Assembly (NCBI RefSeq): GCF_009720675.1
Contig: NZ_WNJO01000002.1
Coordinates: forward strand, 186,001-250,000
Direction: 5' to 3'
Source: Secundilactobacillus folii
Lineage (GTDB): Bacteria; Bacillota; Bacilli; Lactobacillales; Lactobacillaceae
Length of the DNA: 64,000 nt
Below the pieces are notes generated by a model. The model saw nothing but the letters and a program-made list of their open reading frames with translations, did no database searches and was not told where the DNA came from. The translations under genes and the position numbers were made by a program. Shown here in pieces: positions 31,299 through 61,136 of this stretch (within the stretch, counting starts at the first letter, position 1; every line of letters starts with the position of its first letter).

Positions 31299-31471
31299 TT
31301 AAACCACCTTTTGGAAACGAAGTAAAGAATAATGGGTCGCTTAAACAAAGTAAATTTGTCTATCAAAATGATTGAAATGGGACCAGCAGATAGGCATTTC
31401 CCAAAAGTACTTTAATCCTAGACGTATCTACTACTGTCAGATATGTTAAAATAATAGCAGTCAATAAAACT

Positions 31472-31552
31472 ACACTAGGGGCGCCAAACGGCTGAGAAAG
31501 AATTATCTAGTCCCTTTGAACCTGTTAAGTTAATGCTTGCGAAGGAAAGTGT
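31472..31552 (+). ncRNA. TPP riboswitch (THI element)
   Basis: P1 closes by ACACT/AGTGT; the invariant blocks are present: GGGGCGCC, GGCTGAGA, CCCTTTGAACCTG and TGCTTGCGAAGGAAAGTG. It precedes a terminator hairpin at 31572-31613 and thiamine-precursor transport genes, so TPP binding should end transcription. Confidence 0.95.
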
Positions 31553-31571
31553 AAACAACATCTAATCAGAT

Positions 31572-33575: not shown

Positions 33576-34520
33576 CTAAATCAGTTGATAATGACTGTCG
33601 GTTAAAGTGAAGACATCCTTTAATCCGGAAGTAATTGCCACGCGATAGTCACGGGTGACAAAGATTGCGTCTAGGCCTGGCTGATTTTCAATTAGTGGCA
33701 GACCCTTATCAATATCTTGATAGAAGGCCTCAGTGGTCCAAATATCACCGTCGATGGATAAGTCGCTAATGATGGTGACACTCTCCAAATCATTTTGAAT
33801 CGGATAGCCAGTTTTTGAATCGAACATGTGATGGTAATTTTGACCATTGATTACGAGATAACGTTCGTAGATCCCAGAAGTCACAATTGACTTTGCCGGT
33901 GTGGTCATGACGCCGAGGGCAACGTTTCGTTTCTGAACGGGATTTTGCACGCCAATTCGCCAGAGACCATTTGGGCGGGCACTTTTACCAACCAGTAAAA
34001 TGTTGCCACCGAGATCAATGATTCCGCTCTTCACACCCATAGAGACCCAAAGATACTTGATGGCATCTGCAATATAGCCCTTAGCAATCGCACCCAGATC
34101 GATCTCCATTCCCGGTTTAGTGAGAAAGACTGTCTGCGCTCCGTCATTTAATTTAATGTCTGCGGGGTCGATCAATTTAAGCCGTTCCTTGATATCCGAA
34201 TCAGCCGGCAAATTAGCCCCGTCAAAGCCAATTTTCCAGAGCTTGACTAACGGGCCGATTGCCGTGTTAAACCCTAAGTTCCAAAGACTGACCTCTACTG
34301 CCCGTTTAATTAATTGATAGGTGATCGCAGACACGTGAACCGGTTGATCGCCGGCTGCGTGATTAACGTCCATGACTTCCGAAACGGGTCGGTTGACAGT
34401 TAAAATATCCTCGTAGTGCTGAATTAACCGGTGACCAGCATCTAGGTCGGCCTCCGTTGCCGGCTCTTCAACTGAGAGGGTAATAGTGGTACCTAAACCA
34501 TAATACTGCTTTTGAATCAT
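33576..34520 (-). CDS. apbE: FAD:protein FMN transferase
   Basis: 314-aa ApbE enzyme that covalently attaches FMN to Thr/Ser of target flavoproteins. Seen: MEIDLGAIAKGYIADAI, GIIDLGGNILLVG, and HHMFDSKTGYPIQN. No lipobox or signal peptide, so cytosolic or anchored by other means; in lactobacilli the enzyme often serves extracellular electron transfer or fumarate reductase proteins. The fumarate reductase gene 7 kb away has no FMN-binding (DGAT-type) attachment domain, so its target is probably elsewhere. Start ATG 34520 (TTG 34523 is an alternative). Confidence 0.9.
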   Translation of the reverse strand: MIQKQYYGLGTTITLSVEEPATEADLDAGHRLIQHYEDILTVNRPVSEVMDVNHAAGDQPVHVSAITYQLIKRAVEVSLWNLGFNTAIGPLVKLWKIGFDGANLPADSDIKERLKLIDPADIKLNDGAQTVFLTKPGMEIDLGAIAKGYIADAIKYLWVSMGVKSGIIDLGGNILLVGKSARPNGLWRIGVQNPVQKRNVALGVMTTPAKSIVTSGIYERYLVINGQNYHHMFDSKTGYPIQNDLESVTIISDLSIDGDIWTTEAFYQDIDKGLPLIENQPGLDAIFVTRDYRVAITSGLKDVFTLTDSHYQLI

Positions 34521-34564
34521 CAAGTTTCACGCCTTTCTTGGCAAATGTTTAACTCCAAGATAAC

Positions 34565-34603
34565 ACAAAACCGACTTAACAGCAGACTGTTAAGCCGGTT
34601 TTG
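34565..34603 (-). terminator. Terminator between the orphan leader and apbE
   Basis: On the minus strand CAAAACCGGCTTAACAG / CTGTTAAGTCGGTTTTG with a 4-base loop. It would end any transcript from the leader promoter at 35020-35048 before apbE, as if it were the terminator of a lost operon. Confidence 0.8.
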
Positions 34604-34754
34604 AATCTGGGGTGAGAGGTCCCAGAATTGTGTGAATATCGGATTTGCACTTCATTATCGTGCTATTGATGAAAGGAGTCCGTTTGACCTGATGCTTGAT
34701 GAGTCTTGTTTTCAGGTATCCACGGATAAAATCATGGCTAGGTTGTAGTTTCTT

Positions 34755-34820
34755 TCATTGGCATTCGCTCCCTCTAAACATTCCCCTAAAAACTATGTAA
34801 TCGAATCCTTTACCAAACAT
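34755..34820 (-). CDS. 21-aa open frame behind the orphan attenuator
   Basis: Short frame starting MFGKGFDYIVFRG with a strong site GGGAGGTGATAT before ATG 34820, right after the attenuator terminator. This is where the first structural gene of an attenuated operon would begin. I do not recognise the peptide; it may be a deletion scar or a real small protein. Confidence 0.35.
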   Translation of the reverse strand: MFGKGFDYIVFRGMFRGSECQ

Positions 34821-34851
34821 ATATCACCTCCCGCTACAAATGGGTAAGAAA

Positions 34852-34935
34852 AAACCAGGAACCTTGAACAGCTCCTGGATAGACCAACGCTGCCCGCTCT
34901 ATTTTGCGGGCACTAAACTGTGACCCGCCTGCTTA
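34852..34935 (-). promoter_or_regulatory. Attenuator of the orphan branched-chain leader
   Basis: On the minus strand, downstream of the leader stop: GGCGGGT can pair with GCCCGC, or GCCCGC with GCGGGC (mutually exclusive), followed by the terminator CCAGGA...TCCTGG with six T (34852-34877). This is the pause/antiterminator/terminator order of amino acid attenuators. Confidence 0.72.
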
Positions 34936-34989
34936 TAAAATCACGACGCGAATAATCACACTGTTTAATTGTACGTTAGTCTTTGTCAT
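34933..34989 (-). CDS. Orphan branched-chain amino acid leader peptide
   Basis: 18-aa frame MTKTNVQLNSVIIRVVIL with AAAGGGG nine bases before ATG. Eight of its residues are Val, Ile or Leu, five of them in the last seven codons, as in ilv-type leader peptides whose ribosome stalling controls attenuation. An attenuator hairpin set follows, but no ilv gene: the next gene is apbE, beyond another terminator. Confidence 0.75.
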   Translation of the reverse strand: MTKTNVQLNSVIIRVVIL

Positions 34990-35019
34990 TTGGATTACCC
35001 CTTTGTTTGAATTGCATCT

Positions 35020-35048
35020 AATATAGCATTAAAACATGATGAGTGCAA
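35020..35048 (-). promoter_or_regulatory. Promoter of the orphan leader
   Basis: Minus strand TTGCAC (35048-35043), 17-base spacer, TATATT (35025-35020), about 30 bases before the leader start. Confidence 0.65.
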
Positions 35049-35185: not shown

Positions 35186-35623
35186 GTGAAAGTTGAAAAA
35201 ATGGATCATATCTCATCTACTGACCTTCAGACATTGATGACCCTCTGGCTGAGTGGTAACTTGGATGCCCATCCGTTCATCAGCGAAGAATACTGGCAAG
35301 AGCACGAAAACGAGGTTGCAGGGGCTTTGAAAACCGCTGAAGTCTACGTTGTTCGTGATGATAATGGCGAGATCGTCGGTTTTGCCGGGATGCAGGGTCA
35401 GCGACTAACTGGTATCTTCGTTAAAGCTGGTCAACGAAATGATGGTCTTGGAAGCCTGCTGATGTTTGCTCTGAAGTCAGACTATCGGTTGATCAAAGCC
35501 TCAGCCTTCGAGAAAAATGCCAATGCAATTCACTTCTATAAGCAGCATGATTTTGACATCAGTGAACGCGAATTAAATCAGGAAACCAATGAAGTTGTCG
35601 TTAAGATGATTTGGCAGGCTTAA
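35186..35623 (+). CDS. GNAT-family N-acetyltransferase
   Basis: 145-aa single GNAT domain. The acetyl-CoA loop is GQRNDGLGSLLM (a variant of RxxGxG/A) and NANAIHFYKQHDF marks the C-terminal half. Substrate unknown; size and pattern fit ribosomal-protein or small-molecule acetyltransferases. GTG start at 35186 with AGAGGAAG six bases upstream. Shares a terminator with a convergent small gene. Confidence 0.88.
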   Translation: MKVEKMDHISSTDLQTLMTLWLSGNLDAHPFISEEYWQEHENEVAGALKTAEVYVVRDDNGEIVGFAGMQGQRLTGIFVKAGQRNDGLGSLLMFALKSDYRLIKASAFEKNANAIHFYKQHDFDISERELNQETNEVVVKMIWQA

Positions 35624-60855: not shown

Positions 60856-61136
60856 AATGAAACAATTAAAACGCTATGAGAAAGTTAAGTAGCTGTTCAG
60901 CACCTGTAAGCGAGCTTCGGTTGGTGAGAGGAAGCCAGAGTTGAATAGTGAAGATCCCTTTCGAGCGACGTACCGAAGTTGAAGTAACGTACGTTGGGTA
61001 CTCCCATTATCGAGTTAGCGTATCGCCAATTGGCCGTACGTGAAGAGGCTATTTCAGTGATGAGATAGCAAGATAAGGTGGTACCGTGCATACGCACCCT
61101 TAGCTCACATGAATTGTGAGCTGAGGGTGCTTTTTT
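60856..61136 (+). ncRNA. T-box leader, probably isoleucine-specific, with terminator
   Basis: The T-box core AAGGTGGTACCGTGC is at 61075-61089, followed by the terminator GCACCCTTAGCTCAC / GTGAGCTGAGGGTGC with six T (61094-61136). Stem I contains GGTGAGAGGAAGCC and the specifier region GTGAAGATCCCTTTCGAG, where ATC (Ile) sits in the usual position after GAA. Uncharged tRNA-Ile binding would allow reading into brnQ. Specifier assignment is by analogy with other T-boxes. Confidence 0.9.

Follow-up and report, generated by a model that had tools for sequence, protein, structure and literature searches.

An orphan branched-chain attenuator in Secundilactobacillus folii that may control a short non-coding transcript

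Introduction

Leader-peptide attenuators of branched-chain genes are known from Escherichia coli, in the form of the ilvGMEDA and ivbL type. Attenuators are usually regarded as belonging to the operon that follows them. The ilvD attenuator of Staphylococcus aureus contains a branched-chain-rich leader peptide, a terminator and a proposed antiterminator, according to the available part of PMC5794164. The unit of Secundilactobacillus folii reported here is similar to the E. coli and S. aureus attenuators in its leader peptide and terminator, and likewise has a proposed antiterminator. Unlike them, it has no biosynthetic or transport gene behind it, its predicted output is a short RNA, and its sequence family is one of the Lactobacillaceae.

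RNA products of attenuators can act in trans. The rnTrpL RNA of Sinorhizobium meliloti is such a product, being the terminated leader of the trpE(G) operon (PMC7298713, available part). The RNA of the present unit is likewise attenuator-derived and is a candidate for trans action. It would be the read-through product of a unit whose gene has been lost, whereas rnTrpL is the terminated leader of an operon that is still present. A small RNA can also be derived from the 5′ UTR of a transporter mRNA, as is Vsr217 from that of malK (PMC8265627, available part). The present unit probably shares this kind of origin, but it would have lost its transporter gene and would have the RNA gated by an attenuator. 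The 23S-methyl RNA (RF01065), encoded before trmL at another locus, has a linker complementary to the orphan RNA; it may be a partner of this RNA but is unrelated to it.

Among the literature matches listed, with subscription journals mostly outside the scope, there is no report of the leader family or of its orphan form. The available part of PMC2965389 contains neither "ilv" nor "branched", and that of PMC2864571 does not mention "23S-methyl". The leader family of the Lactobacillaceae is described below; no Rfam model matches convincingly at the locus of the unit. In several lineages of the genus one attenuator has probably outlived its gene, and it seems to have been turned into the switch of a stand-alone RNA.

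Results

The window is the whole stretch of 64,000 nucleotides of S. folii that was analysed. An earlier note, made from the letters alone, had placed on its minus strand a complete control unit with promoter, 18-residue leader, hairpins, a T6 terminator and a second terminator. Re-reading the sequence confirms it. The unit runs from 35048 to 34556 and comprises the promoter, the leader ORF, the switching hairpins, the attenuator terminator, a gene-free stretch of about 290 nt, and the end terminator. The promoter TTGCAC-N17-TATATT (35020–35048) has its −35 box TTGCAC at 35048–35043 and, after a 17-nt spacer, its −10 box TATATT at 35025–35020. It scores under the threshold of the promoter scan; a similar promoter block recurs at the loci of the relatives. 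The leader ORF MTKTNVQLNSVIIRVVIL (34933–34989) starts with ATG at 34989, ends with TAA at 34933 and has 18 codons, seven of the last eight encoding Ile, Val or Leu. Upstream, the divergent GNAT acetyltransferase gene (35186–35623, plus strand) is a constant neighbor.

The fold of the leader region reaches −60.7 kcal/mol (z = −5.1), and none of 200 shuffles is as low. Four segments precede the attenuator terminator. Segment A (GACTAACGT, 34973–34981) is predicted by the folds to pair with segment D (GCGGGCAGCGTTGGTC, 34882–34897) if it is not covered by a ribosome. Segment B′ (GCGGGTCAC, 34920–34928) is predicted by the nascent-RNA folds to pair, in the stalled state, with segment C (GTGCCCGC, 34906–34913), which was located by folds and by helix comparison of the five orphan copies described below. 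Segment D is the putative 5′ arm of the antiterminator, located by nascent-RNA folds. The attenuator terminator E:F with its T6 tract lies at 34849–34878 (hairpin 34878–34855), and was found by the terminator scan and the helix comparison. The end terminator of the short transcript occupies, with its tail, 34556–34603; its hairpin (34603–34566) has 17 pairs. Both terminators were recovered on the minus strand by the scan, a count of two against a shuffled mean of 1.3 (sd 1.0) that is not above chance. The gene apbE (33576–34523, minus strand) lies past the end terminator and outside the unit.

Rfam scans at curated and at permissive thresholds gave no convincing RNA family at the unit locus. 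The two curated matches in the window, a T-box at 60867–61104 and a TPP riboswitch at 31467–31564, lie elsewhere and are ordinary. Identity of the leader with a T-box was rejected, RF00230 having no match at the unit locus at E up to 5 and the sole T-box of the window being the one just named. Plasmid DNA showed no similarity to the unit.

Relatives of the GNAT and apbE genes occur in all 15 genomes of the genus, and the GNAT-promoter locus is recognizable in 12. An orphan leader, divergent from GNAT, is present in five of them: the window, S. odoratitofui, S. collinoides, S. paracollinoides and the genome G013. The peptide ends in IIRVVIL in the window, in VIVRVVIL in S. odoratitofui, in VIRVVVI in S. 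collinoides and S. paracollinoides, and in RVVRSVLI in G013. An Ile/Val/Leu-rich end is retained in these five copies and throughout the leader family.

The first gene past the unit is apbE at nine of the 12 loci, an L-hicDH/LDH-like gene at two, and a convergent gene at one. The earlier statement that no ilv or leu gene stands behind the leader, and that apbE lies past the terminator, is correct for the window. Neither a structural pathway gene nor any other gene precedes the end hairpin in three of the five orphan-bearing genomes, those of the window, S. odoratitofui and G013. In S. odoratitofui the closing hairpin was seen in the fold and missed by the terminator scan, and apbE follows. In G013 a strong hairpin, likewise seen in the fold and not listed by the scan, closes the unit, and the next gene is convergent; a leader-apbE operon is therefore unlikely.

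In S. collinoides and S. paracollinoides the L-hicDH/LDH-like gene is directly behind the leader, with no terminator between them by the scan (S. collinoides) or by eye (S. paracollinoides). The orphan leader may drive this gene there. We take the gene to be hicDH by name; its best NCBIfam model is L-lactate dehydrogenase, at 267.6 bits under a cut-off of 303.55. Its place behind the orphan leader looks derived, because hicDH-like orthologues sit elsewhere in other genomes, in six of 12 behind a similar upstream gene (G004 and G013 included).

Seven species, S. hailunensis, S. silagei, S. mixtipabuli, S. angelensis, S. silagincola, S. yichangensis and S. pentosiphilus, have the promoter and the downstream element with no leader. 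Their end hairpins were identified by reading, and the leader model has no match there. In a tree of ApbE and hicDH-like proteins, which includes a partial ApbE from G009, these seven group in a single clade (UFBoot 72) surrounded by leader-bearing lineages; this suggests, with moderate support, that the leader was lost once. The partial protein is encoded in the S. paracollinoides genome (G009:C2:50199-50891); it matches from residue 84 on only, and its gene may be broken or fragmented.

When the five orphan copies are compared, helices C:D and E:F are paired in every one of the 80 cells, a result reached by 2 of 500 shuffles, and the covariation score also by 2 of 500. Pairs changed on both sides number 3 of 16, a figure that shuffles often equal (141 of 500). 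Equilibrium folds with the full terminator give the terminator in every state and in all five copies, so the switch would rest on kinetics. Nascent RNA was modeled by cutting the RNA ahead of the 3′ terminator arm and masking the ribosome positions. In these folds four of the five orphan copies behave like a classical attenuator: the probability of D:E is 0.00–0.12 without a ribosome, 0.00–0.25 with a ribosome at the stop codon, and 0.69–0.76 once a ribosome occupies the first control codon. D:E is never favored in G013, where it reaches at most 0.04. A single stalled ribosome allows D:E in the window only at Ser10 (0.76) and Val11 (0.69); at the eight later positions, from Ile12 to the stop, D:E is at most 0.03, and it is 0.73–0.76 if everything upstream is masked. 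In S. odoratitofui and the S. collinoides pair D:E stays at 0.31 or above up to the third-last codon.

A covariance model built from the five orphan copies was searched in 397 genomes of Lactobacillaceae. It matched 74 places in 57 genomes at E ≤ 0.1, and 46 of these genomes have a match at E ≤ 0.0021. Together with the leader fold and the helix comparison, these matches show that the unit is not chance. Under the stricter filters the window's genome gave this single match only.

The 74 places are the five orphan copies and 69 others; 58 of the latter were examined and 11 with E > 0.02 were left out. The first sense gene at the 58 loci is an MHS transporter at 42 (41 by pattern, one, L212, with a variant motif), ilvD at nine, and brnQ or hydratase-brnQ at four (two each). 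Two loci run into contig ends (L180, L188), and L196 has no sense gene of at least 90 residues. These names were assigned by reading, and six of the proteins were scanned with NCBIfam: three transporters, one ilvD product, one brnQ product and one hydratase. The transporters match the metabolite/H+ symporter model at 395.7, 410.5 and 410 bits, all below its curated cut-off of 443.45. L172 is ilvD (774.5 bits) and L216 a branched-chain carrier (329.3 bits), both above cut-off, and the hydratase of L219 has a weak match of 81.7 bits.

Soon past the attenuator an SD-like motif is found at 38 of the 41 MHS loci (for instance L207, L208 and L179), in the form GGAGGTG at 19. Often no start codon is directly behind it. 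The motif CTCATTTACTTTTAAT upstream of many MHS leaders was tried as a regulator site and dropped, since by eye it falls within the −35/spacer region. L196 (G004:C23:110772-110921) is a second family leader with no sense gene of at least 90 residues; an SD and a 60-codon frame beginning MTTIITLLCLSFLWLRL follow it.

The gene lost from the unit was probably one for an MHS-type transporter (metabolite/H+ symporter) rather than an ilv gene. This is taken from the likeness of the 5′ UTRs, the profile scores, the stub and the glutamate dehydrogenase neighbor. The orphan units and the MHS 5′ UTRs share an SD-like motif soon past the attenuator, which in the window is GGGAGGTGAT (34823–34832), and a second SD ahead of an ATG; the string CATA occurs in 16 of the 41 MHS 5′ UTRs. 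In the window the second SD, GAGGGAG (34774–34768), precedes a six-codon stub, MKETTT (34738–34758), a probable remnant of the transporter start. Transporters begin, for example, with MEETPTTY, METTTTV, METTTEAL or MQETDATS, and orphan stubs read MKETTT, MEETTT or MKETTQ, among others.

A nucleotide profile was made from 35 of the 41 MHS 5′ UTR and start segments, with UTRs of up to 140 nt; the control set comprised 170 gene starts from the genus, 153 of them distinct. Five orphan units score 14.0, 9.9, 9.6, 8.4 and 7.5 bits against a control maximum of 5.9, and three further units score 5.0, 3.8 and 3.4 bits, under that maximum. Eight of the 12 units exceed all 200 of their own shuffles; single-unit matches are weak, the best having E = 0.01. 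The units of S. odoratitofui and S. pentosiphilus have no match, and in S. collinoides and S. paracollinoides the profile matches only the start of the hicDH-like gene. No convincing coding remnant of the transporter was found past codon six of the stub. A glutamate dehydrogenase gene adjoins the leader-MHS unit in three of the five leader-bearing genomes of genus g3, divergent in all three; in the window it is the second gene on the corresponding side.

The ilv descent proposed in the earlier note was abandoned. None of the 12 genus genomes with this locus has an ilv gene there, and ilvC (KARI_C), present in five of the 15 genus genomes, is on other contigs and absent from the window's genome. 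What stands of the proposal is a branched-chain attenuator remaining from an operon, with no structural gene; its ilv origin does not agree with the genes found next at the 12 loci. The window's genome retains only a distant MHS relative of 30% identity. In G007, G012 and G014 an MHS transporter of 84–85% identity has no leader upstream. The MHS genes of S. silagincola, S. yichangensis and S. odoratitofui (L261, L262, L263) are preceded by a promoter-like block and an SD, without leader or attenuator.

The segment past the attenuator was aligned in nine species, namely the window, S. odoratitofui and the seven leaderless ones; S. collinoides, S. paracollinoides and G013 were excluded, as they do not share the block set. 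Of 136 gapless columns 36 are invariant; for fourfold sites of apbE the figure is 3 of 98 (Fisher p = 6e-7). TACATA served as the anchor for cutting the segments; without its six columns the count is 30 of 130 (p = 8e-6). The invariant blocks are TACATA (in the window within TACATAG, 34793–34799), ATG.AAGAAA and CTCATCAAG (34695–34703). We read the segment as a retained RNA, since these blocks are kept in nine species, seven of which have no leader. A further hairpin, with loop CCTCTCACC (34606–34626), is also present in S. odoratitofui and G013. The model of the downstream element (R2) gave 33 rows at E ≤ 0.01. Nine of them, all in its nine source genomes, have at least 67 bits; the other 24, with 24.2 bits or less, we take as background. 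The structure consensus of the leaderless RNA has a covariation term of +0.68, and no fold is claimed.

The earlier note also considered a small protein, and listed in this segment the motif GGGAGGTGAT and a 21-residue frame, MFGKGFDYIVFRGMFRGSECQ (34755–34820). The frame is found in the window only, with no counterpart in the 11 other species that have the locus. The motif, GGAGGTGA, is no evidence for a small protein, because it is common past attenuators, being SD-like at 38 of 41 transporter loci. The SD and ATG of the stub are kept in the nine species, with two to eight codons of varying sequence (MKETTT, MKETIIQV, MKEIKVN, MK); no stub was found in G013. Of the two uses that had been imagined for the leader, the control of a short transcript is the favored one, and the part concerning a small protein falls away.

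A weak match of the orphan RNA in its own genome (E = 0.335 alone) revealed the block GAAGTGCAAATTC at a second place. It has 18 exact copies in 13 of the 15 genus genomes, the reversed control pattern having three copies in two. Twelve of the 18 are in one conserved intergenic place, with a trmL-like gene beside 11; of the six others, four belong to the orphan RNAs of S. odoratitofui, S. silagincola, S. yichangensis and G013. In the window's genome the opposite strand of that place is a 23S-methyl RNA (RF01065, 60.3 bits, gathering threshold 50). The other 11 places carry the same RNA by sequence, and its 24-nt linker is identical in all 12. The best NCBIfam model of the trmL-like gene is TrmL (178.3 bits, below the cut-off of 190.6), and the PDB relatives of its product are mostly named tRNA (cytidine(34)-2′-O)-methyltransferase. 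E. coli TrmL modifies the wobble bases of tRNA-Leu (PMC3763551, available part).

The candidate antisense site of the window lies at 34637–34661, with a 15-nt exact core at 34657–34643. The exact complement of the linker is 15 nt long in the window and in S. odoratitofui, 21 nt in G013, 13 nt in S. silagincola and S. yichangensis, and 9 nt in S. mixtipabuli. The predicted duplexes have −27.2 kcal/mol in the window and S. odoratitofui and −30.8 kcal/mol in G013, with none of 1000 shuffles as good in each case; random 24-mers from sampled stretches of the same genomes match these energies in 1, 3 and 0 of 3000 cases, respectively. The duplex is weaker in S. silagincola (11 of 1000 shuffles as good) and S. 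yichangensis (5 of 1000). It is unconvincing in S. mixtipabuli (66 of 1000) and S. angelensis (87 of 1000, best site at another place), and no better than shuffles (773–996 of 1000 as good) in S. hailunensis, S. silagei, S. pentosiphilus, S. collinoides and S. paracollinoides. Extended complementarity to the separately encoded RNA is accordingly strong in three units, weaker in two, and unconvincing or absent in seven. The linker was chosen post hoc and the species share ancestry, so these tests are not independent. Precisely those species that have both the leader and a stand-alone RNA show the strongest site (n = 3). Coverage by 7-mers against the whole 23S-methyl RNA stands out in three of 12 units only (G013 2, S. 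yichangensis 3 and S. angelensis 8 of 1000); the signal is carried by the longest complementary block and not by overall coverage.

Two further matches were set aside. A 21-mer with a 95% match on contig C16 is inside a 109-residue frame and was dropped. The 13-mer GAAGTGCAAATTC has another exact site in that genome (L311, G000:C12:156563-156575), which lies between frames and is followed by a terminator-like hairpin; it is excluded as evidence, the reversed control also giving three matches in two of 15 genomes.

Discussion

With a probability of about 0.58, the unit is a branched-chain attenuator coupled to translation that stems from a leader-MHS operon and today governs a short non-coding transcript. 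The operon would have lost its coding sequence before the radiation of the 12 sampled Secundilactobacillus species. We infer the switch from the folds, as follows. When Val or Ile is scarce, the ribosome would stall at the first control codon, Val11, with later codons effective only if the leader behind is covered too. The stalled ribosome would hide segment A, thereby allowing B′:C to pair and D:E to form, and transcription would continue over about 290 nt as far as the end terminator. With Val and Ile in ample supply, the ribosome would reach the stop codon, A and C would hold D, and the terminator would form, leaving a product of only about 160 nt. Control by the leader appears dispensable, because seven species have no leader.

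The unit could instead be a dead remnant, decaying without function since the operon lost its gene, which we consider unlikely. It would account for the absence of the leader in seven of 12 species, for the weak or absent antisense site in several leaderless ones, and for the failure of the G013 attenuator to switch in the fold model. However, five species on four branches of the tree still have the leader, its hairpins and the promoter, the invariant columns are far above those of fourfold sites, and the downstream element stays even where the leader is absent. Control of apbE or another downstream gene by read-through is less probable still. It would fit the position of apbE next on the same strand in the window, and the fact that in S. 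collinoides and S. paracollinoides no terminator was seen to separate the leader from the L-hicDH/LDH-like gene behind it. Yet a 17-pair terminator separates the unit from apbE in the window, the next gene of G013 is convergent, and the downstream gene changes among lineages while leader and GNAT stay. That the unit encodes a functional small protein, either the 21-residue frame or MKETTT, is very improbable: the SD and ATG of the stub are conserved in nine species, but the frame is restricted to the window, and the stub, with its two to eight variable codons, was not found in G013.

If the attenuator controls a short transcript, that RNA would be trans-acting, with the 23S-methyl leader RNA of trmL as its most likely pairing partner. 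We propose tentatively a starvation-gated antisense RNA: under shortage of Val, Ile or Leu the RNA would pair with the 23S-methyl linker, tying branched-chain supply to wobble methylation of tRNA-Leu. In G013 this pairing, equally tentative, would extend to the start of the 23S-methyl terminator stem. A little more plausible, though still short of an even chance, is that the linker match is a resemblance by chance or by descent only and that the RNA acts otherwise, for example as a mimic of ribosome or mRNA. The match was found post hoc, from an own-genome hit that alone has E = 0.335, and in five of 12 units the duplex does not surpass its shuffles, while in two more it is unconvincing. Against chance stand the perfect 21 nt in G013 and 15 nt in the window and S. 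odoratitofui, which no shuffle out of 1000 equals in any of the three and which very few of 3000 random 24-mers do. If the pairing is real, the 23S-methyl RNA gains a candidate trans partner, and amino-acid sensing is linked to tRNA modification.

Judged by the genes and peptides of the family as a whole, the leader seems to be a portable element for branched-chain control of uptake and synthesis genes. At L202 (G359:C88) a leader is followed in series by an MHS transporter, a hydratase-like gene and an L-hicDH-like gene, an order that hints at a 2-hydroxy/2-oxo-acid operon.
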